Shown here piece after piece: positions 15,829 through 24,613 of a stretch of DNA of 64,000 nt. This DNA is from Ferrimonas kyonanensis DSM 18153. GTDB lineage: Bacteria > Pseudomonadota > Gammaproteobacteria > Enterobacterales > Shewanellaceae. Made by a program: the position numbers and the translations under genes. The notes under the pieces were generated by a model. The model was not told where the DNA came from, ran no database searches, and worked only from the letters and a program-made list of their open reading frames with translations. The DNA lies in assembly GCF_000425405.1 (NCBI RefSeq), contig NZ_AUDJ01000016.1, positions 1 to 64,000 on the forward strand. Direction: 5' to 3'. Within the stretch, counting starts at the first letter, position 1, and each line of letters begins with the position of its first letter.

Positions 15829-16338
15829 TTACTGCTGTAACCCCGCCAACTCGGGTTTTGCTGTACTGCTTAATAAAGGAATCAGTTGCTCAGGCGTGGT
15901 TAATCCCCTGAAATAACGAAGATAATGACCCTGCTTGTCGGCAACCAGCAGAATCGGGGTGGCGGGAATGCCACCCATCTCCCGCTCCAGGGCCCTTGAT
16001 GCCTGATAGGCTGGTAACGAGACGCCGAGATCAAACAGCGCCCGCTTCAATGCCAATCGGTTGCCGTGAACCCCCAGCATCACCGGGATGAAGCTGTTGT
16101 GTTGTTGCTGTTGCAGTTTGTCCAGAATTCGGGCTTGTTTGATGCACCAGCTGCAGTCTGGTTCGAAGAACATCATCACCACTGGCTGGCCAGCCAGGTG
16201 AGTGAGATCGGTTACCTCGCCGGAGCGCAGATTCCGGTGTTCAAACTCCAGCAGTTGTGGAGCTTCACTGCTGGCGGTGGCCAGTGCCGGGAGTAACCCC
16301 AGCACGGCCACCAACCAGAGACGCCAGAGGGTCAGCAT
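15829..16338 (-). CDS. Periplasmic thioredoxin-like protein coupled to TonB receptor
   Basis: A 169-residue protein with a signal peptide ending near ALATASS, then a TlpA/AhpC-type fold. The redox centre is PDCSWCIKQ near residue 62, and the cis-Pro loop is [10 protein letters not shown]. Its ATG overlaps the stop of the TonB receptor (ATGA), so the two are translated together. This points to a role with the receptor, perhaps keeping cysteines reduced in the periplasm, but that is inference. Confidence 0.82.
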
Positions 16339-18533
16339 CAGAAGGTGGCTTTCAGGCCAATGTAGGCTTCACGGCCGCGCAGCGGACCGTAGATGTAGCC
16401 CACGTCATAGCCGCCTTCGCGTCGGCCCTGAGCGTCGGGTTCACCGGCATCGTAGAACAGTGGCGTGTCTTCATCACCGGCCTGGGTGTAGTCAAACAGG
16501 TTGGCGACGCCCACGTAGGCGGAGAAGGTTTCGTTGATCTCGTAGCTGGCACGCAGGTTCATGGTGAAGTAGTCGGGTGCGTCAGTGCTCTTCTTGGAGC
16601 TGTCAACGACAAAGCCGTTGCCGTCTACCTGGTTGTAACCTTCGTAGCCATATTCGCTCAAGTCACGGCTGCCAACCCAAACGACGTCGGCGTACAGCTC
16701 CCAGCTGGCGATGTCCCAATCCATGCTCACGGTAACCCGTTCTTCGATGGGGGCAATGGCGTAGGAGGACTTGAAGGTATCGTCGTAATTGAAGTGTTCG
16801 GCGGTCAGGTTCACCGTCAGGTCGTGGGTGATCTGGTAACCCATGGCGATGTCGGTGGTGATGACGGTGGCGTCTTCGTCCAGCTGAGTCAGCTTAGGCA
16901 CACCCTCGTCGGTCTCGTCCAGGGCCGCCAGGTTCTCTACTTCGGTCCAGGCGATGGAGCCGGTGGCGGTGAAGTGCTCACCTTCAAAGCTCAGGGCGTA
17001 GTTGGCGGAGTTGGAGCGCTCCAGGGAGTCGACGTCAATGACGAAGCCTAGGGTGCCATCCAGAATACCGTGGTCGGTTTCGAAGAAGGACAGCGGCGCG
17101 CGGTAGCCGCGGCCGGCAGACAGGCGAGAGGTCCACTGATCGTTGTGGCGCAGGCGCATGTCCACGCGAGGCGACAGGATAGACTCGTCAATTTCAGTGC
17201 CAGGCTTCTTAGGATCGATGAAATCCGCTTCGACCTGGTCGTAACGCAGGGCAATGTTCACTTCCAAGTCGTCGCTGGCCTGCCAGGTATCCTGCAGGTA
17301 CACGCCCATTACGTCGTAATCGAAGGAGTCAGAGGTGTACTTTTTATTGGCGCTGCCGGAGCGGGAGTGAGAGCGCATCTCTTCGGTACGCAAATCGGCA
17401 CCGAAAGTCAGCAGATGATCATCGTTAAGCACGTAGTTGAAACGGGCATCGAAGAAGTACATGGTGTCTTCGGCGTAGTAGTCGAAGCCTTCGTAGAAGG
17501 AGTCCTGCTCATGGTCGGCGTAGCTGGCCGACAGCGTCATGTTCAGGTCGTCGTTCATGTCGTGCAGCCAGCTCAGTGACGCTTCGTTGCGCTTGGTCTC
17601 GATCCACTCGGTGGTTTCCCAGGCTTTGCCGATGAAGTCTTCACGCACGTCGCCGTTGTTAAACAGCTGGCCGGTTTCGGAGGGAGCGTCATCAAAGGCG
17701 GCAATAATAGCCCCTTTGCTGTCAAAACGACCATCGGCGTAGGTCTCGCCCAGCATCGGGCCGCCGAAGATGTCGGAGTAGATGTTGGATACCCGCAACA
17801 CGATGTTGTCGTGGTCACCGATGTCGTGGGAGATGCGAGCGCTGATGCTGCGGTTCTCCTGGGACGGCGCTTCGTTAACCTTGTTGTTGTCTTCGTCGAC
17901 CTGATCGCGATCGTCATACTGAGCAATCAAGGTGGCGCGAGTCATGCCATCTTCGCTGACGCCATAACCGACGAAGCTGAACTTCTGGTAGCCCTCTTCG
18001 CCCACGGACAGATCCAGCTCGGCACCGTTTTCAATTGGTTCGGCGGTGATGACGTTGATGGTGCCGCCGATGGCCTCAGGGGCGATTAGGGAGGCGCCGG
18101 CGCCGCGGGCCACTTCGATGCGGGAGACACCCGACGTCGGAATGGCATCGACGGCGTAGAAACCGGAGATCATAGTGTGAACCGGCAGGCCGTCCACCAG
18201 GATGGTGGTATGTTCACCTTTCATGCCATTCATCATGATGCGCTTGACGCCGCACATGGAGCATTCGGCTGAGACTTTGACGCCAGGGGAGTTGTCGATC
18301 GCTTCGGTCAGGTTAACCGCGTTTTTGCTTTCGATCAGGTCGGAACCGATCACTTCGGTCTTCTGGATGGTATTGGCCAGAGTACCCGCCTGCTCAAGAC
18401 GTTGGCGAACGCCCATGACTTCGATGCGTTCTACACCTTCGGTCTGAGTTTGTTTCGCTGATTCATCCTGGGCATGGGCCCCGATGGGGGCCAGCATCGC
18501 AATGATCAGGCTGGCTATTTGGGTCTTTTTCAC
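16338..18533 (-). CDS. TonB-dependent outer-membrane receptor
   Basis: A 731-residue receptor. I chose GTG 18533, which begins a signal peptide (VKKTQIASLIIAMLAPIGAHA) and has aaagga upstream; an in-frame extension to 18821 lacks a ribosome site. The TonB box region may be VERIEVMG. The plug follows, with CSMCGVKRIMMNGMKGEH instead of the usual plug sequence, then ILVDGLPVHT, GAGASLIAPEAIGGTINVIT and a 22-strand-type barrel ending in Phe (GLKATF). The CxxC with neighbouring Met and His residues could form a disulfide or bind metal. The Fur-box-like site upstream suggests iron control. The ligand is unknown; an iron chelate or another metal complex is likely. Confidence 0.88.
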   Translation of the reverse strand: MKKTQIASLIIAMLAPIGAHAQDESAKQTQTEGVERIEVMGVRQRLEQAGTLANTIQKTEVIGSDLIESKNAVNLTEAIDNSPGVKVSAECSMCGVKRIMMNGMKGEHTTILVDGLPVHTMISGFYAVDAIPTSGVSRIEVARGAGASLIAPEAIGGTINVITAEPIENGAELDLSVGEEGYQKFSFVGYGVSEDGMTRATLIAQYDDRDQVDEDNNKVNEAPSQENRSISARISHDIGDHDNIVLRVSNIYSDIFGGPMLGETYADGRFDSKGAIIAAFDDAPSETGQLFNNGDVREDFIGKAWETTEWIETKRNEASLSWLHDMNDDLNMTLSASYADHEQDSFYEGFDYYAEDTMYFFDARFNYVLNDDHLLTFGADLRTEEMRSHSRSGSANKKYTSDSFDYDVMGVYLQDTWQASDDLEVNIALRYDQVEADFIDPKKPGTEIDESILSPRVDMRLRHNDQWTSRLSAGRGYRAPLSFFETDHGILDGTLGFVIDVDSLERSNSANYALSFEGEHFTATGSIAWTEVENLAALDETDEGVPKLTQLDEDATVITTDIAMGYQITHDLTVNLTAEHFNYDDTFKSSYAIAPIEERVTVSMDWDIASWELYADVVWVGSRDLSEYGYEGYNQVDGNGFVVDSSKKSTDAPDYFTMNLRASYEINETFSAYVGVANLFDYTQAGDEDTPLFYDAGEPDAQGRREGGYDVGYIYGPLRGREAYIGLKATF

Positions 18534-18595
18534 AACGGCAGTCCTTTCTATATCCGGTACTGGAAGAGGTTTGTTGCGGAGATGGTATTGGAAGT

Positions 18596-18614
18596 GAGAA
18601 TGGTTGTCATTACC
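18596..18614 (-). promoter_or_regulatory. Fur-box-like site before the TonB receptor
   Basis: gagaatggttgtcattacc matches 14 of 19 bases of the classic Fur consensus (GATAATGATAATCATTATC). It lies about 63-81 bases before the chosen receptor start, a sensible place for iron repression. Confidence 0.55.
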
Positions 18615-18935
18615 AAATAAGGGGATTTGGTAACTTTGGGGCAACAACTTTTTGGGGCTGTGAAACAAATCACAATCGAACCGATTGTAATAAATCTTGT
18701 TCAGTCTGGCTGAATCCACCGGTAGAACGGGCTTTGGTGTTGATTGGCTTTCGAAAAGGCGAACTGCGGATGTTATCTGGTTGTGGCCGAGTGTGTGGCA
18801 ACGAGATTCCGTCATTGCCATTTCGGTACGAGTTAGACTGCGTGGTTGTATACATCTGGTTACAACTGTGACGTTTTGGTTGTGTTTTTTATGATCCGGC
18901 GCCCATTTTCTACCTTAATGGTAAGAGTTGCAGTT

Positions 18936-18954: not shown

Positions 18955-19300
18955 GGTTGTGTGGTTTAGCTTTTTTCTGTCGATGGCGTCATTGCCATCG
19001 GCTCGGAACCCTCTCCCGAGCGGGGATTTACGATCTGCCTGGTTGTGATGTCTCTTATCTCTTTGGTGGACTGCCTGCTGCCATAGAGATACTCGTTGCG
19101 TTGGAATTGATTGTCTCTCTTTCACATTTGCCTGTTTGTTGAAAGAAGGCGCAGCGAGGAGGGAGAGTGTTCCACTTCCATAGCGGTCATTGGTCCCAAA
19201 CGCCCGCTTGATTGCCTAATTCCCCTGTCGCTGGCAACAGGATCTCCGGTTAGCGGCCACGGTGTTCGAGGCCGCTGACGTCGAGCGTCGAGTCAGGGAT

Positions 19301-20920
19301 TCAGTTGGCGCCATTCCAGCCATACTCTTTGAGCTTGCGATACAGGGTGGCTTTGCCGATGCTGAGAATCTTCATCGCCTGGGCCTTGTTGCCCTTGCAG
19401 GCACGGACGACCGACAGAATGTACTCCCGCTCCATCTCCTCCAGGCTAAGGGCGTGGGCGGCGATTCGCTGAGGAAGGTTGGTGGGGGCGTTCAGCGACG
19501 CCGGCAGATCCTCGATGGTGATCTCCCGTCCGTGGCACAAGGCGGTGCAATACTCCACCACATTTTGCATTTCACGAATGTTACCGGGCCAGGAGTGTCC
19601 TTCGAGTATTCGGGCCACCTTGTTGGAAAAACCACGAATATTGCGCCCCATGTGACGATTCTTGCTTTCCAGAATGGATCGGGCCAGCGGCAATATGTCC
19701 TCCTGGCGTTGGCGTAGGCTGGGAATCTTGAGTTCGACCACACACAGTCGGTAATACAGATCGGCCCGAAACCGACCCTGTGCCACCTCTTGCTCCAGGT
19801 TGCGATTGGTGGCGCAGATGATGCGTACGTCCACTTTTCGGCAGTGGTTTTCTCCGACCCGGCGCACCTCCTGCTCCTGCAGGGTTCGCAGCAATTTTAA
19901 CTGCATGGCGGCGGAGATTTCGCCGATTTCATCCAGAAACAGGGTGCCGTTGTCCGCCTCCTCAAACAGCCCGGCCCGGTCGCGGTCGGCGCCGGTGAAC
20001 GCCCCCCGTTTATGGCCGAACAGTTCGCTCTCCAGCAGGGTTTCGGTCAGGGCGCCGCAGTTGATGGCCACGAAGGGTTGGGAGGAGCGGTTGGAGCGTT
20101 CGTGGATAAAGCGGGAGAGGCGTTCTTTGCCGACGCCGCTCTCGCCGGAGACCACCACCGAGGAGTCCACTTTGGCGACTCGGGCGGCAAGCTGGATCAG
20201 CCTGGTCATTTCCCGGTTCTGGGTGATAAAGCCTTCCACGGTCTGTTGCTGATAGGCCTTACCTTGCCGGCTGGCCTTGAGGGCTTTTTGGGTTAACTCC
20301 AGTCGTTTGGTGAGTTCCTTTAGCAAGGAGTCGGAGGAGGCCATGGAAAAAAAGGGTTTGTGGGGCTCCAACTCCTCCCCCCAGTCCTCTTTGAATTTTC
20401 CGATGACCCGGCAATACGGGTCGCCCTTGCCTATGCACATGTCCTCGATGAAGTAGACCTCGCGGTTGTGCTTCCAGGACTCAAAGCCGCTGGCAAAGCC
20501 GGTTAGTGTCCAGCAGACGGGATCGTCGGACTCACCGATACTCAACTGGTGCTGCTCCGCTTCGTAGGAGTTGTGCCAATGCACTTCCAGCAGGGTGTTG
20601 GTGCTGCCGCTTCGCGGCTTGAAGGCAAAGGTTTTGGTGATGCCAAACAGCATATGCAGGTGAGAGCCGCTTTGTGGATCGAGATAGACCTCGGGGAACT
20701 CGCTGCTGAGAATCTGACCGGTGCGCCAGCCATGGGCGTAGCCAAAACGGGTCAGGATGCAACGGGCGACAAAGGTGCCAAACTGATCGATCAACTCTTT
20801 GCGTAATAACCCTAAAGCAACGGCATCAAGCAATACCATTCTCTGGTCCTTGAATTTAATCAGCCCCTCATCAGGGAGAAAGTCAAGGAACTCTCTTGGG
20901 TTAATTTCACTGTTCAGCAT
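19301..20920 (-). CDS. Sigma-54-dependent activator with XylR-N/V4R sensor domain
   Basis: A 539-residue enhancer-binding protein. Residues about 10-190 form an XylR-N plus V4R sensor (for example CWTLTGFASGFESW and EDMCIGKGDPYCRVIG), the type that binds small, often aromatic, effectors in XylR/DmpR. The AAA+ core follows: Walker A SGESGVGKERL, the sigma-54 contact loop GAFTGA (FGHKRGAFTGADRDR), Walker B GTLFLDEIGE and the arginine region LYYRLCVVEL. A Fis-type helix-turn-helix closes it (NKAQAMKILSIGKATLYRKL). It is divergent from the flavoprotein gene, and a concentric palindrome and a sigma-54 promoter lie between the two. It therefore very likely switches on that reductase in response to its substrate. 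Confidence 0.92.
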   Translation of the reverse strand: MLNSEINPREFLDFLPDEGLIKFKDQRMVLLDAVALGLLRKELIDQFGTFVARCILTRFGYAHGWRTGQILSSEFPEVYLDPQSGSHLHMLFGITKTFAFKPRSGSTNTLLEVHWHNSYEAEQHQLSIGESDDPVCWTLTGFASGFESWKHNREVYFIEDMCIGKGDPYCRVIGKFKEDWGEELEPHKPFFSMASSDSLLKELTKRLELTQKALKASRQGKAYQQQTVEGFITQNREMTRLIQLAARVAKVDSSVVVSGESGVGKERLSRFIHERSNRSSQPFVAINCGALTETLLESELFGHKRGAFTGADRDRAGLFEEADNGTLFLDEIGEISAAMQLKLLRTLQEQEVRRVGENHCRKVDVRIICATNRNLEQEVAQGRFRADLYYRLCVVELKIPSLRQRQEDILPLARSILESKNRHMGRNIRGFSNKVARILEGHSWPGNIREMQNVVEYCTALCHGREITIEDLPASLNAPTNLPQRIAAHALSLEEMEREYILSVVRACKGNKAQAMKILSIGKATLYRKLKEYGWNGAN

Positions 20921-20949
20921 AAATGCGGCCCTTTTTATTCCTTATAAAG

Positions 20950-20985
20950 GGTTCCAAAATGAAACCCTGGTTTCTGTCTGGAACC
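20950..20985. promoter_or_regulatory. Concentric palindrome, probable enhancer for the V4R activator
   Basis: Outer arms ggttcca (20950-20956) and tggaacc (20979-20985) and the inner perfect palindrome gaaaccctggtttc (20961-20974) share the same centre, 20967.5. The centre is about 97 bases upstream of the predicted start site of the sigma-54 promoter, the usual distance for an activator site. Confidence 0.65.
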
Positions 20986-21037
20986 GACGCAGATCACCAT
21001 TGTTAACCAAACCCTTTAATAACAATGCTTTACGTTT

Positions 21038-21053
21038 TGGCATGAAGAGTGCA
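21038..21053 (+). promoter_or_regulatory. Sigma-54 promoter of the flavoprotein/cytochrome operon
   Basis: tggcatgaagagtgca matches TGGCACG-N4-TTGCA with two mismatches and has the required GG-N10-GC spacing. Transcription would begin near 21064. Confidence 0.68.
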
Positions 21054-21231
21054 ATAAGTGGTTTATCGTTGGTGAGATACGCTCGTCGACGCAGAATTCT
21101 TATTTAATCTGTGAATTAATTAATAGGGCTTAGCGCCATGCAATTAATAAATGCAGACTGAAAAAGGATAACAAAAATAAAACTCTTCGGTGTGATGAAT
21201 ATCGTTATGTCGAGATGATGAGGATTATATT

Positions 21232-22767
21232 GTGAGAAATATGAAGAGACTCTCAGTTCTGGTGGCGGCCACCCTGTTCAGTGCTGGCGGCTGGGCCGCA
21301 GATATTGTCAAAGACGTTGATGTTGTCGTCGTGGGCTCAGGTGCCAGTGGCATGGCAGCCGCCGTAGAAGCTCAGGAAGCGGGCCTGAAGACGGTGTTGC
21401 TGGAGAAGATGCCGACCATTGGCGGCTCTGCCTTGTACATCGAGGGCACCTTTGCCGTCGAGACCGATCATCAGAAATCGATGTACATCGGTCTGGATAA
21501 AGATTGGGCCTATAAGAACCACATGGAGTTCAACCATGGCTTTATTAATGGTCCTTTGATCCGCAAGTGGATCAATAACTCGGCGAATTCCATCAAATGG
21601 ATGGAAGACCATGGCGTGACTTTCCACGATGTGCGCACCTTGTTTGAGGATGGCTATCGTACCTGGCACATTTTTAAGGACGGTAAGGGTGTCGAGTTTG
21701 TCAATCAGATGGCCAAGTCGTTCAAACAGCACGGCGGCACCATTCTGACTGAAACTCCGGGTACCGAGATCATCTACGAAGACGGTAAAGTCACCGGCAT
21801 CATGGCCGAAGATGCAGAGGGTGAGACCTACCAGTTTAATACTCAGGGTGGGGTGATTGTGGCCGCAGGCGGCTTTATCAACAACCCGGAGTATCTGAAG
21901 AAATACGGCATTCGCTCCGACTACCTGATTGTGGGTCCTAAGACCGGTCGTGATGGTGACAGTCTGCCGTGGTACGACAAGGTGGGCGCGCGTCTGGAGG
22001 GGATGGGAACCCACCTGGCGATCGGTGCCTGGTTGTCTGGTAAAGATCCAAACACCCAACTGAGCCAACCGGAGCACACCACAGTTTACTCGCAACTGGC
22101 GTCGTTGCTGCGTCAGCCCTACATGTGGGTGGCCAATGACGGTAAGCGCTTCATCGACGAGTCGCAGGCACCGCTGTGGATGAACACTGACCCTGCGGTA
22201 GAGCGGGTTGGTGGGTCTTACTTCGCCGTCTTCGATGACACCCTCAAGGATTACATGATCAATGAGGGTATCGATGTGTCTCACTCCGACTGGGTTCGCG
22301 TTGGTCACAAGCTGGACCTGCTTGAAGAGGGGCTCGAGGTCGGCCAGGAGGAGGGGTACGTGTATGTTTCCAACACCATCGAAGGCCTGGCCAAGAAGAT
22401 GGGGGTGGATCCGGTCGCCCTCAAGAAGACTGTCGAAGACAACAACCGTTACGCGGTTAATGGTCTGGACGAGGAGTTCCCCAAAGACCGTAAGTACGTC
22501 CGCTCCATCAGCAAGCCGCCTTACTTTGCCGTGAAAGGCGACAACGCCACCTTGATTACCCTCGGTGGCCCCTCGACCAACACCGACATGCAGATTCTGC
22601 GGGAAAAGGATCTGAAACCGGTTGAGGGCATGTATGTGGTGGGCTGTGAAGTGGGTGGCATCTACGGTGACTCCTACAACCTGACCCTGGAGGGGATGGC
22701 CAGCTCCTTTGCCATTAACTCCGGCCGGTTTGCTTCTCAGCACATTGCCAAGAAGCTCGGTAAGTAA
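21232..22767 (+). CDS. Periplasmic FAD-dependent reductase, flavocytochrome c flavin subunit type
   Basis: A 511-residue exported flavoprotein. GTG 21232 has agga 7 bases upstream; ATG 21241 is the alternative. The signal peptide ends near GGWAA. The FAD-binding motif is VVVVGSGASGMAAAVEA, followed by EKMPTIGGSALYI, GVIVAAGGF and a second FAD contact region YVVGCEVGGIYGDSYNL at the C terminus. The fold is that of the fumarate reductase/urocanate reductase/ketosteroid dehydrogenase group. No heme motif is present; the tetraheme cytochrome is the next gene, so this looks like a split flavocytochrome. GKRFIDES matches the active-site Arg segment of the family. The usual HxxGG and GxNRLGGNA signatures of fumarate reductase are replaced by TLGG and GDSYNL. 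Fumarate is therefore doubtful as substrate; an unsaturated or aromatic compound is more likely. Confidence 0.88.
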   Translation: MRNMKRLSVLVAATLFSAGGWAADIVKDVDVVVVGSGASGMAAAVEAQEAGLKTVLLEKMPTIGGSALYIEGTFAVETDHQKSMYIGLDKDWAYKNHMEFNHGFINGPLIRKWINNSANSIKWMEDHGVTFHDVRTLFEDGYRTWHIFKDGKGVEFVNQMAKSFKQHGGTILTETPGTEIIYEDGKVTGIMAEDAEGETYQFNTQGGVIVAAGGFINNPEYLKKYGIRSDYLIVGPKTGRDGDSLPWYDKVGARLEGMGTHLAIGAWLSGKDPNTQLSQPEHTTVYSQLASLLRQPYMWVANDGKRFIDESQAPLWMNTDPAVERVGGSYFAVFDDTLKDYMINEGIDVSHSDWVRVGHKLDLLEEGLEVGQEEGYVYVSNTIEGLAKKMGVDPVALKKTVEDNNRYAVNGLDEEFPKDRKYVRSISKPPYFAVKGDNATLITLGGPSTNTDMQILREKDLKPVEGMYVVGCEVGGIYGDSYNLTLEGMASSFAINSGRFASQHIAKKLGK

Positions 22768-22832
22768 GCATGGAGTCGGGACCGGCGGGCTTTGCCGCCG
22801 GTCTTGTTGATTCATTTTTCGAAGGTCTATTC

Positions 22833-23171
22833 ATGAAAACGTTTTCTCTGACTCTGCTGGCCGTTGCCGGTTTGATGTTCTCTTTCCTGGGGATGGCCTC
22901 GGAGCATCTGGCCGAACGACACGCCGGTTTTGGAATTGATTGTGTCGATTGCCACCTGACCGAGGTGCCCACCAAACGCGCCAAGAGTAAGGCGTGCAAG
23001 GGGTGCCATGGTGACAAGGTTGACGTACCGCTGTTCCAGGCCGAGGAGCGCAGCGTCGATTTCCACGAATCCCCCCATGGCAGTGTGCGTTGTACCAAGT
23101 GCCATCTGGCGCACCAGCAGCCGGTGATGTACTGCAACGAGTGTCATGCGTTTGAAAAGGCCGTTCCTTAA
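22833..23171 (+). CDS. Periplasmic tetraheme cytochrome c
   Basis: A 112-residue protein with a signal peptide (residues 1-22) and four c-heme motifs in order: CVDCH, CKGCH, CTKCH and CNECH. Extra histidines (for example ERHAGFG, FHESPHGS, AHQQ) can provide the second axial ligands. This is the small tetraheme type found as the N-terminal domain of Shewanella flavocytochrome c3, here as a separate subunit. ATG 22833 has gaagg upstream. It follows the flavoprotein by 65 bases and most likely passes electrons from the membrane quinol dehydrogenase (CymA-like) to it. Confidence 0.92.
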   Translation: MKTFSLTLLAVAGLMFSFLGMASEHLAERHAGFGIDCVDCHLTEVPTKRAKSKACKGCHGDKVDVPLFQAEERSVDFHESPHGSVRCTKCHLAHQQPVMYCNECHAFEKAVP

Positions 23172-23209
23172 GGCCAGCCTTACGGGTCTGTTACGTCGCC
23201 TCAGACATG

Positions 23210-23238
23210 AAAAAAGCCGCTCTGTTGAGCGGCTTTTT
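23210..23238. terminator. Bidirectional rho-independent terminator
   Basis: gccgct-ctgttg-agcggc is flanked by an A-run (23210-23215) and a T-run (23234-23238). It serves both the tetraheme cytochrome gene and the convergent glutathione reductase gene. Confidence 0.85.
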
Positions 23239-23257
23239 ACTGTCTTCCTTGGGCGTT

Positions 23258-24613
23258 TTAGCGCATGGTCACAAACTCTTCGGCGCTGGTAGGGTGCAGG
23301 GCCACGGTGTTGTCGAAGTCCGCTTTGGTGGCGCCCATCTTGATGGCCACCGCAAAGCCCTGCAGGATCTCATCCATGCCGAAGCCGATGCCGTGCAGGC
23401 CGACAATTTTCTGTTCGGGGCCGGCGCACACCAGCTTCATCTGTGTCTGCTGGCGGTGGGCGGTGACCGCGGTGTACATGGCGGCAAAGCCGGAGGTGTA
23501 CACCTGAACGTTGTCTTCGCCGTACTGCTCTACCGCCTGAGGCTCGGTCAGGCCAATGGTGCCGATGGCCGGATGACTGAAGACCACGGTGGGTACCAGC
23601 GAGTAGTCCATCTTGGCGTTGGGTTGATTGCCAAACAGCCGTTCCGACAGTTGTCGACCCGCCTTTACCGCCACCGGTGTCAGCTCGATGCCCCCCTCCA
23701 TGATGTCGCCGACGGTGTAGATGCCGTCGACGTTGGTGTTCTGGTACTCATCCACCGGAATGAACCCGCGGTCATTCACCTTGACGCCAGAGGCTTCGAT
23801 GTTGATGACGTCGGTGGCCGGTTCACGGCCGATGGCCCAGATCAGGGTGTCGACGTTGAGGCTGTTGCCATTTTCCAGTTTCAGGGTCAGGCTGCCATCG
23901 GCCTCTTTCACCACCTCTGACGGAATGGAGTGGGTATGCAGCGTTGGCCCTTCTTGTGCCATCAGATCCACCAGGGTCTGGGTGATCAGGGGATCAAAGT
24001 TGCGCAATGGGGCGTGTTTACGCACCAGTAGATGGGTGTCGCTGCCCAGGGCATGCAGCACCCCTGCCAGCTCCACTGCGATGTAGCCGGCGCCGACCAC
24101 CGCCACCCGCTTGGGTTGCTCGGTCAGGGCGAAGAAGCCATTGGAATCGATGCCGTGCTCGGCACCGGCAATCGCCGGAATGGTGGGGCGGCCACCGGTG
24201 GCGATCAGAATGTGAGGGGCGGTGTAGTGCTCGCCGTTGACTTCGATGGTGCGGCTGTCGACAAACTTGCCAAAACCGTTCACCAGGGTGACGCCATTGG
24301 CGTCCAGGCCTCGGTTATAGCCACCGTGAATGCGTTCGATGTAGGCTTCACGGCTGGCCACCAGCTTGCTCCAGTCGAATCGGTTCACGGTCAGATCGAA
24401 GCCGTAGTCGGCACCGTACAGGTTGACCGCCTCCGCTACCTGAGCCCCAAACCACATCACCTTTTTCGGCACACAACCGACGTTCACGCAGGTGCCGCCC
24501 AGGTGCTTGGCCTCGATCAGCAGCACCTTGGCTCCGCGCATGGCGGCCCGGTTGGCTGATGCGATGCCGCCGCTGCCGGCACCAAGAACGATGTAGTCAA
24601 ATTGCTGAGCCAT
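23258..24613 (-). CDS. gor: Glutathione reductase
   Basis: A 451-residue FAD- and NADPH-dependent disulfide reductase that regenerates glutathione. The FAD motif is [16 protein letters not shown], the redox disulfide is [16 protein letters not shown], the NADPH motif is [16 protein letters not shown] and the C-terminal catalytic His lies in [11 protein letters not shown]. The length equals that of E. coli Gor (450). In E. coli, gor lies near prlC and rsmJ; here prlC (29227) and rsmJ (33183) follow after intervening gene blocks. Confidence 0.95.

Follow-up and report, generated by a model that had tools for sequence, protein, structure and literature searches.

What does a sensor of the phenol-responsive kind control when its neighbour is a reductase? 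The question is raised by a locus of the marine bacterium Ferrimonas kyonanensis DSM 18153 that lies in the first 64,000 nucleotides of contig NZ_AUDJ01000016.1, a stretch referred to here as the window. A gene for a sigma-54 activator (19301-20920, minus strand) and a gene for an exported FAD-binding reductase (21232-22767, plus strand) are divergent, with a 311-bp region separating them, and a tetraheme cytochrome gene (22833-23171, plus strand) follows the reductase gene on the same strand. It is proposed, with a probability of roughly 0.6, that the locus is a phenolic-responsive one-component switch for a respiratory reductase. The cytoplasmic activator would bind a phenolic compound in its V4R pocket and oligomerise on tandem dyads at 20950-20985. 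With the DNA looped over about 60-80 bp, it would then make sigma-54 RNA polymerase open a promoter at 21038-21053, inducing the exported reductase and its tetraheme electron donor. Quinol-derived electrons would pass from a membrane donor of the CymA/NapC kind to the cytochrome and on to the reductase in the periplasm. The acceptor may be an unsaturated, probably phenolic compound that is not bound in the manner of fumarate.

A phenol-type sensor beside a reductase

The activator is a one-component protein of 539 amino acids. Domain profiles match XylR_N (residues 9-97), V4R (115-174), the sigma-54 AAA+ domain (232-397) and a Fis-type helix-turn-helix (HTH_8, 492-533), and GAFTGA is present in the translation; the V4R match, at 29.3 bits, is slightly below its cut-off of 31 bits. 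This is the domain set of the XylR/DmpR type. A reading made from the sequence alone (the sequence-only reading) had described a V4R/sigma-54 activator divergent from an exported FAD reductase and a tetraheme cytochrome, and the profile matches, the GAFTGA motif and four CXXCH motifs agree with it. Against the NCBIfam MobR model (NF041906), the activator scores 367.5 bits, short of the curated cut-off of 999. The genome encodes one XylR_N protein.

The sensor domain (20399-20896, minus strand) was aligned to MopR, PoxR and CapR/DmpR. As described in passages of PMC7264223 and PMC10715001, His106 and Trp134 of MopR anchor the phenol hydroxyl, and further residues act as zinc ligands. The activator carries H89 and W115 at the anchor positions, and its C136, E159, C162 and C170 correspond to the MopR zinc ligands C155, E178, C181 and C189. 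The His and Trp anchor and the Zn(Cys3Glu) site of the XylR/DmpR type are both present, and they are kept in all eight orthologous regulators. According to the DmpR passages, XylR itself carries Tyr where DmpR-type sensors have the anchor His. By this alignment, a phenolic ligand is likely.

Tandem dyads and a predicted sigma-54 promoter

Between the divergent genes, a concentric palindrome centred at 20967.5 had been described. Its arms (20950-20966 and 20969-20985) are indeed 82% complementary (14/17), and among 300 dinucleotide-shuffled versions of the intergenic region, one reached 14 complementary pairs. The 36 bp are, however, better read as two tandem 17-bp dyads of the form GGTTYC-N5-GRAACC, 19 bp apart, and the concentric arrangement was set aside. 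The candidate upstream activating dyad 1 is GGTTCC-AAAAT-GAAACC (20950-20966), and candidate dyad 2 is GGTTTC-TGTCT-GGAACC (20969-20985). The GGTTYC-N5-GRAACC pattern has two matches in the 4.93-Mb genome, both at the locus, and its reversed control has one. Dyad 2 of F. sediminum has A and T in place of the outer G and C; this paired change, a single event, fits dyad 2 as a dyad of its own. As the pattern was drawn up after inspection of the sequence, its conservation in other species is the independent test.

The predicted -24/-12 promoter, TGGCATGAAGAGTGCA (21038-21053, plus strand), matches GG-N10-GC just as had been stated, and rpoN is present once in the genome. The spacing of about 97 bases from the palindrome centre to the predicted start, also given earlier, follows from the position of this promoter. 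The -24 T lies 61 bp downstream of the centre of dyad 2. A search for sigma-70 promoters found none in 19000-23400, where 2.2 were expected from shuffles.

Orthologous loci were compared in three Ferrimonas and five Shewanella genomes (the fifth being G838), with alignments covering seven of the eight. Dyad 2 and the -24/-12 promoter are kept in all eight, with 61-64 bp between the centre of dyad 2 and the promoter T throughout. Both dyads (apart from the paired change in dyad 2 of F. sediminum) and the TGGCA-N7-TGC promoter persist in F. sediminum and F. futtsuensis amid intervening DNA that has diverged. Four Shewanella, among them S. canadensis and S. atlantica, have a flavoprotein 76-77% and a regulator 61-62% identical to those of the window, and their dyad 2 is a perfect GTTCC-N5-GGAAC. 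The palindrome is thus conserved beside orthologues as far as dyad 2 is concerned, dyad 1 being partial in Shewanella. Among 152 Shewanellaceae genomes, zero-mismatch tandem dyads occur in three, each time at the locus; with up to two mismatches they occur in 16, namely all eight carriers of the locus, at the locus, and eight others elsewhere, of which seven share nearly one sequence. These comparisons give good support to sigma-54 control acting through the dyads.

The 5' untranslated stretch before the reductase (21161-21231) is near-identical in the three Ferrimonas, and the DNA upstream of it has diverged. It holds a 7-codon reading frame from ATG 21195.

The reductase and its pairing with the regulator

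The reductase has 511 amino acids, with an FAD_binding_2 match at residues 30-482 and, by eye, a Sec-type signal peptide at roughly residues 1-23. Its AlphaFold model (mean pLDDT, a per-residue confidence score, of 83, from an alignment of 18) comes closest in fold to urocanate reductase (6t86, TMq 0.79) and also resembles flavocytochrome c3. Such a fold would suit a fumarate- or urocanate-like carboxylate reductase whose V4R regulator is incidental, yet this is very improbable. In a profile alignment, the enzyme has Pro314 in the column of the catalytic residue Arg402 of flavocytochrome c3, a column identified by the mutant Arg402Tyr (1jrz), and it shows LITLGG and YGDSYNL in place of the HHTMGG and RLGG motifs. 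The residues Arg402, HH(504/505) and Arg544 of the flavocytochrome c fumarate reductases, which we take to have active-site roles (Arg402 and His505 mutants are named in structure titles), are therefore missing, and a fumarate-type enzyme was rejected as a candidate. H365 could not be placed with certainty, and the model, with pLDDT below 50 at 313-318 and 480-486, cannot itself settle the matter. The score against the flavocytochrome c model (TIGR01813) is 183 bits, the curated cut-off being 285.45. With the motifs also missing, the earlier label 'flavocytochrome c-type' holds for the fold and the electron partner only.

The periplasmic cytochrome c (PF14537) comprises 112 amino acids from its likely start at ATG 22833, rather than 22770, and carries four CXXCH motifs. 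A perfect 9-bp hairpin (22780-22803, plus strand) lies between the two genes. Phenolics can be toxic, and the reductase might accordingly detoxify or redox-balance reactive aromatics or quinones instead of serving as an energy-conserving terminal reductase. A glutathione reductase gene and a gene resembling glutathione S-transferase (GST) lie downstream in the window, and a transporter of the major facilitator superfamily (MFS), in the same gene row in Shewanella, matches efflux models below cut-offs. Even so, such a role is improbable: the tetraheme cytochrome, expected of a quinol-linked chain, is kept in all eight orthologous loci, and the four named Shewanella loci have no gor/gst match. 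Three NapC/NirT-type matches in the window genome count for the quinol-linked route of the proposed respiratory reductase. In all four of these Shewanella loci, the MFS transporter and one further gene come after the cytochrome and reductase genes; the further gene encodes an outer-membrane protein in L029, the one Shewanella locus checked by Pfam. The system had been called self-contained, which is true of regulator, reductase and cytochrome but not of this longer gene row.

On the other side of the activator, a TonB-dependent receptor gene and a thioredoxin-like gene (15829-18821) lie between it and a glutaredoxin-like gene; no match to the receptor and thioredoxin-like genes was found at that place in F. 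sediminum or F. futtsuensis.

How general is the pairing? The XylR_N profile (PF06505) gave 33 matches in 23 of the 152 Shewanellaceae genomes, and the surroundings of all 33 were inspected. Of these, 30 have a flavoprotein within 7 kb and 29 a tetraheme cytochrome; the three loci without a flavoprotein (L169, L178, L179) all abut the edge of a contig. Near L178 there is an aldehyde dehydrogenase, and L179 starts next to a partial reductive dehalogenase (28 bits, cut-off 24). The one flavoprotein locus without a cytochrome is L187; there and in L185 (both of genome G797), the flavoprotein genes look broken, unlike the full-length regulators. All eight operons checked by Pfam have an outer-membrane protein (DcaP/porin or Phenol_MetA_deg) in their vicinity. 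When -24/-12 sites were counted within 450 bp of the first operon gene, the stricter pattern was found in 29 of 30 operon upstreams (L139 being the exception), compared with 1/122 control genes in the same loci, 0/30 reversed sequences and 1/30 opposite strands; the looser pattern gave 2/122, 1/30 and 2/30 in these controls. By comparison, the conserved dyad 2 and promoter and the nearness of this regulator type to such genes in 30 of 33 cases support sigma-54/V4R control of the flavoprotein-cytochrome pair. The sequence-only reading is partly borne out, its inducible respiratory system with a substrate sensed by the regulator staying a proposal.

Outside the family but within the order, nine matches were found, and none of the five loci inspected has a flavoprotein-cytochrome neighbourhood; three of the five look phenol-catabolic by eye. 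In a phylum sample, the regulator was detected at E 1e-105 in 2 of 398 genomes, the window genome and one congener, with at most three candidates scored per genome, so that this is a weak test of its spread outside Shewanellaceae. The flavoprotein was detected at E 1e-85 in 1 of 369 genomes of a class sample, the window genome itself, and no relatives were found in viral contigs. A close orthologue is present in 3 of 14 Ferrimonas genomes, and the window genome holds several distant relatives besides the locus copy.

The regulators also differ with their enzymes. Fumarate-type His-His/Arg motifs are present in 10 of the 28 regulator-flavoprotein pairs with an intact flavoprotein (L133, L134, L135, L137, L141, L177, L180, L183, L184 and L186), and their regulators have Cys or Ser at the position of MopR His106 and Phe at that of Trp134. 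Among the other 18, the regulators of 11 have His and Trp (eight in the window group, three in the L168 group) and those of three have His with Met or Ile (L138, L181, L182). The anchor His thus accompanies 14 of 18 non-fumarate-type enzymes and none of the 10 fumarate-type ones, counts whose independence is overstated since the pairs are related by descent. They also bear on whether sensing and substrate are uncoupled, a phenolic cue being sensed as a sign of plant or algal matter and a different compound being reduced. The kept phenol anchor would suit this as well, and regulators of other kinds, judged by eye to be of GntR type or PAS-kinase/LuxR pairs, have flavoproteins 31-38% identical to the reductase in their neighbourhood; the covariation speaks against it, and we regard it as unlikely.

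In the regulator tree (midpoint root; long branches in L112 and others), the window group is one clade (100/99), and its neighbour is the group that includes the dehalogenase loci (94/96, not starred). Within one clade of regulators (100/100), flavoproteins of the fumarate type are interspersed with those of one other kind, which suggests an exchange of enzymes.

Several points weigh against the proposed phenolic switch. Most non-anchor pocket positions are unlike MopR (Ser86, Thr95, Thr97, Val113, Phe142, Phe146, Glu147, Phe157 and Val172) and no counterpart of MopR F99 could be placed, which makes plain phenol an improbable ligand. Most other regulators of the family have lost the anchor, four of the 18 non-fumarate-type pairs (L136, L139, L140, L188) have neither anchor residue, and the family loci, sharing descent, are not independent. 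Dyad 1 is complete in the three Ferrimonas only and degenerate in Shewanella, where the left half alone is kept. A backward control pattern matches 30 of the 152 genomes at up to two mismatches, none among the eight carriers; with the eight off-locus matches, this makes the place of tandem matches informative and their presence not. Neither in the window genome nor in F. sediminum was a gene for a transporter or porin seen next to the locus. Lastly, the best NCBIfam match of the reductase, VprA (NF053717), is weak (305.4 bits, curated cut-off 600), and relatives under other regulators score higher (L021 371, L022 355 and L024 336 bits). The match is, therefore, no pointer to vinylphenol in particular, which was dropped as a specific substrate, being unproven.

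In L022, L023 and L024, flavoproteins 32-34% identical stand with a tetraheme cytochrome and a Phenol_MetA_deg protein, divergent from what by eye is a PAS sensor kinase and a LuxR-type response regulator. The same enzyme type looks, by eye, to be under two-component control there.

Other arrangements were seen within the family. L138 (8319-15327; genome G001, same genus) has in one row a V4R activator, a Tat-type flavoprotein, a tetraheme cytochrome, a Phenol_MetA_deg protein and a reductive dehalogenase (108 bits, longer than that of L179), followed by a protein of 102 residues that gave no Pfam hit and that may, judged by eye, be a membrane anchor. It is a candidate halophenol respiration cluster. 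L179 has a sister activator beside its partial dehalogenase. L133, L177 and L180 carry, upstream of the flavoprotein, 6-N5-6 dyads with a different half-site (TGAGAA-N5-TTCTCA), whose centres precede the -24 T by 81-91 bp; in L136, TGTTTC-N5-GAAACA precedes it by 94 bp.

The pairing of regulator and enzyme, repeated with different enzymes, suggests a family of sensor-controlled respiratory systems for aromatic and related compounds. A wider reading, offered tentatively and with somewhat less than even odds, is that phenol-sensor sigma-54 activators were recruited in Shewanellaceae as substrate sensors for swappable anaerobic terminal reductases, pocket and active site changing together; the swappable set would comprise various kinds of flavoprotein and also the reductive dehalogenases of two loci. 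If pocket and active site do covary, the electron acceptor could be predicted from residues of the pocket. Many periplasmic flavoprotein reductases lack an assigned substrate; here each adjoins a sensor of a structurally understood class, so that ligand screening on a simple reporter could name the substrate. Were phenolics to serve as electron acceptors in marine sediments, they would connect anaerobic respiration with plant, algal or halogenated aromatics in a way that has been little explored.

Comparison with known systems

According to the sequence-only reading, such sensor control of flavocytochrome c-type reductases is not known to have been described. No V4R or sigma-54 control of such a reductase is reported in the titles and abstract openings found by searches of an open-access library, for several searches those of the top-ranked entries. 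For Desulfoluna, sigma-54 regulators in reductive dehalogenase clusters are mentioned in PMC7031245, from which the term V4R is absent.

The activators DmpR, MopR, PoxR and XylR share with the window activator the XylR_N and V4R sensor, the His and Trp anchor, the Zn(Cys3Glu) site, the sigma-54 AAA+ domain and palindromic upstream activating sequences ahead of a -24/-12 promoter. They adjoin aromatic-degrading operons, whereas the window activator stands beside a reductase and a cytochrome and has an upstream activating sequence of its own. It is about 35% identical to the phenol-type regulators L142-L144, which group apart with L112 in a separate clade (98/100). PheR, EtpR and PcrS of Aromatoleum aromaticum belong to the same V4R sensor class, also with sigma-54, and passages of PMC10715001 describe anaerobic sensing of phenol, p-ethylphenol and p-cresol by them; their targets, as given there, are anaerobic degradation pathways.

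On the side of the enzyme, VprA vinylphenol reductase is the nearest named family, and its substrates are phenolic. It is under the LysR-type VprR, as stated in passages of PMC10295242; the window reductase differs further in having a signal peptide and a cytochrome partner. Flavocytochrome c3 and urocanate reductase share with the window system the FAD_binding_2 fold and a tetraheme electron donor. They differ in the fumarate-type residues, which the window enzyme lacks, and in the TIGR01813 cut-off, which it does not reach; in the window system, heme and flavin are, moreover, carried on separate chains.

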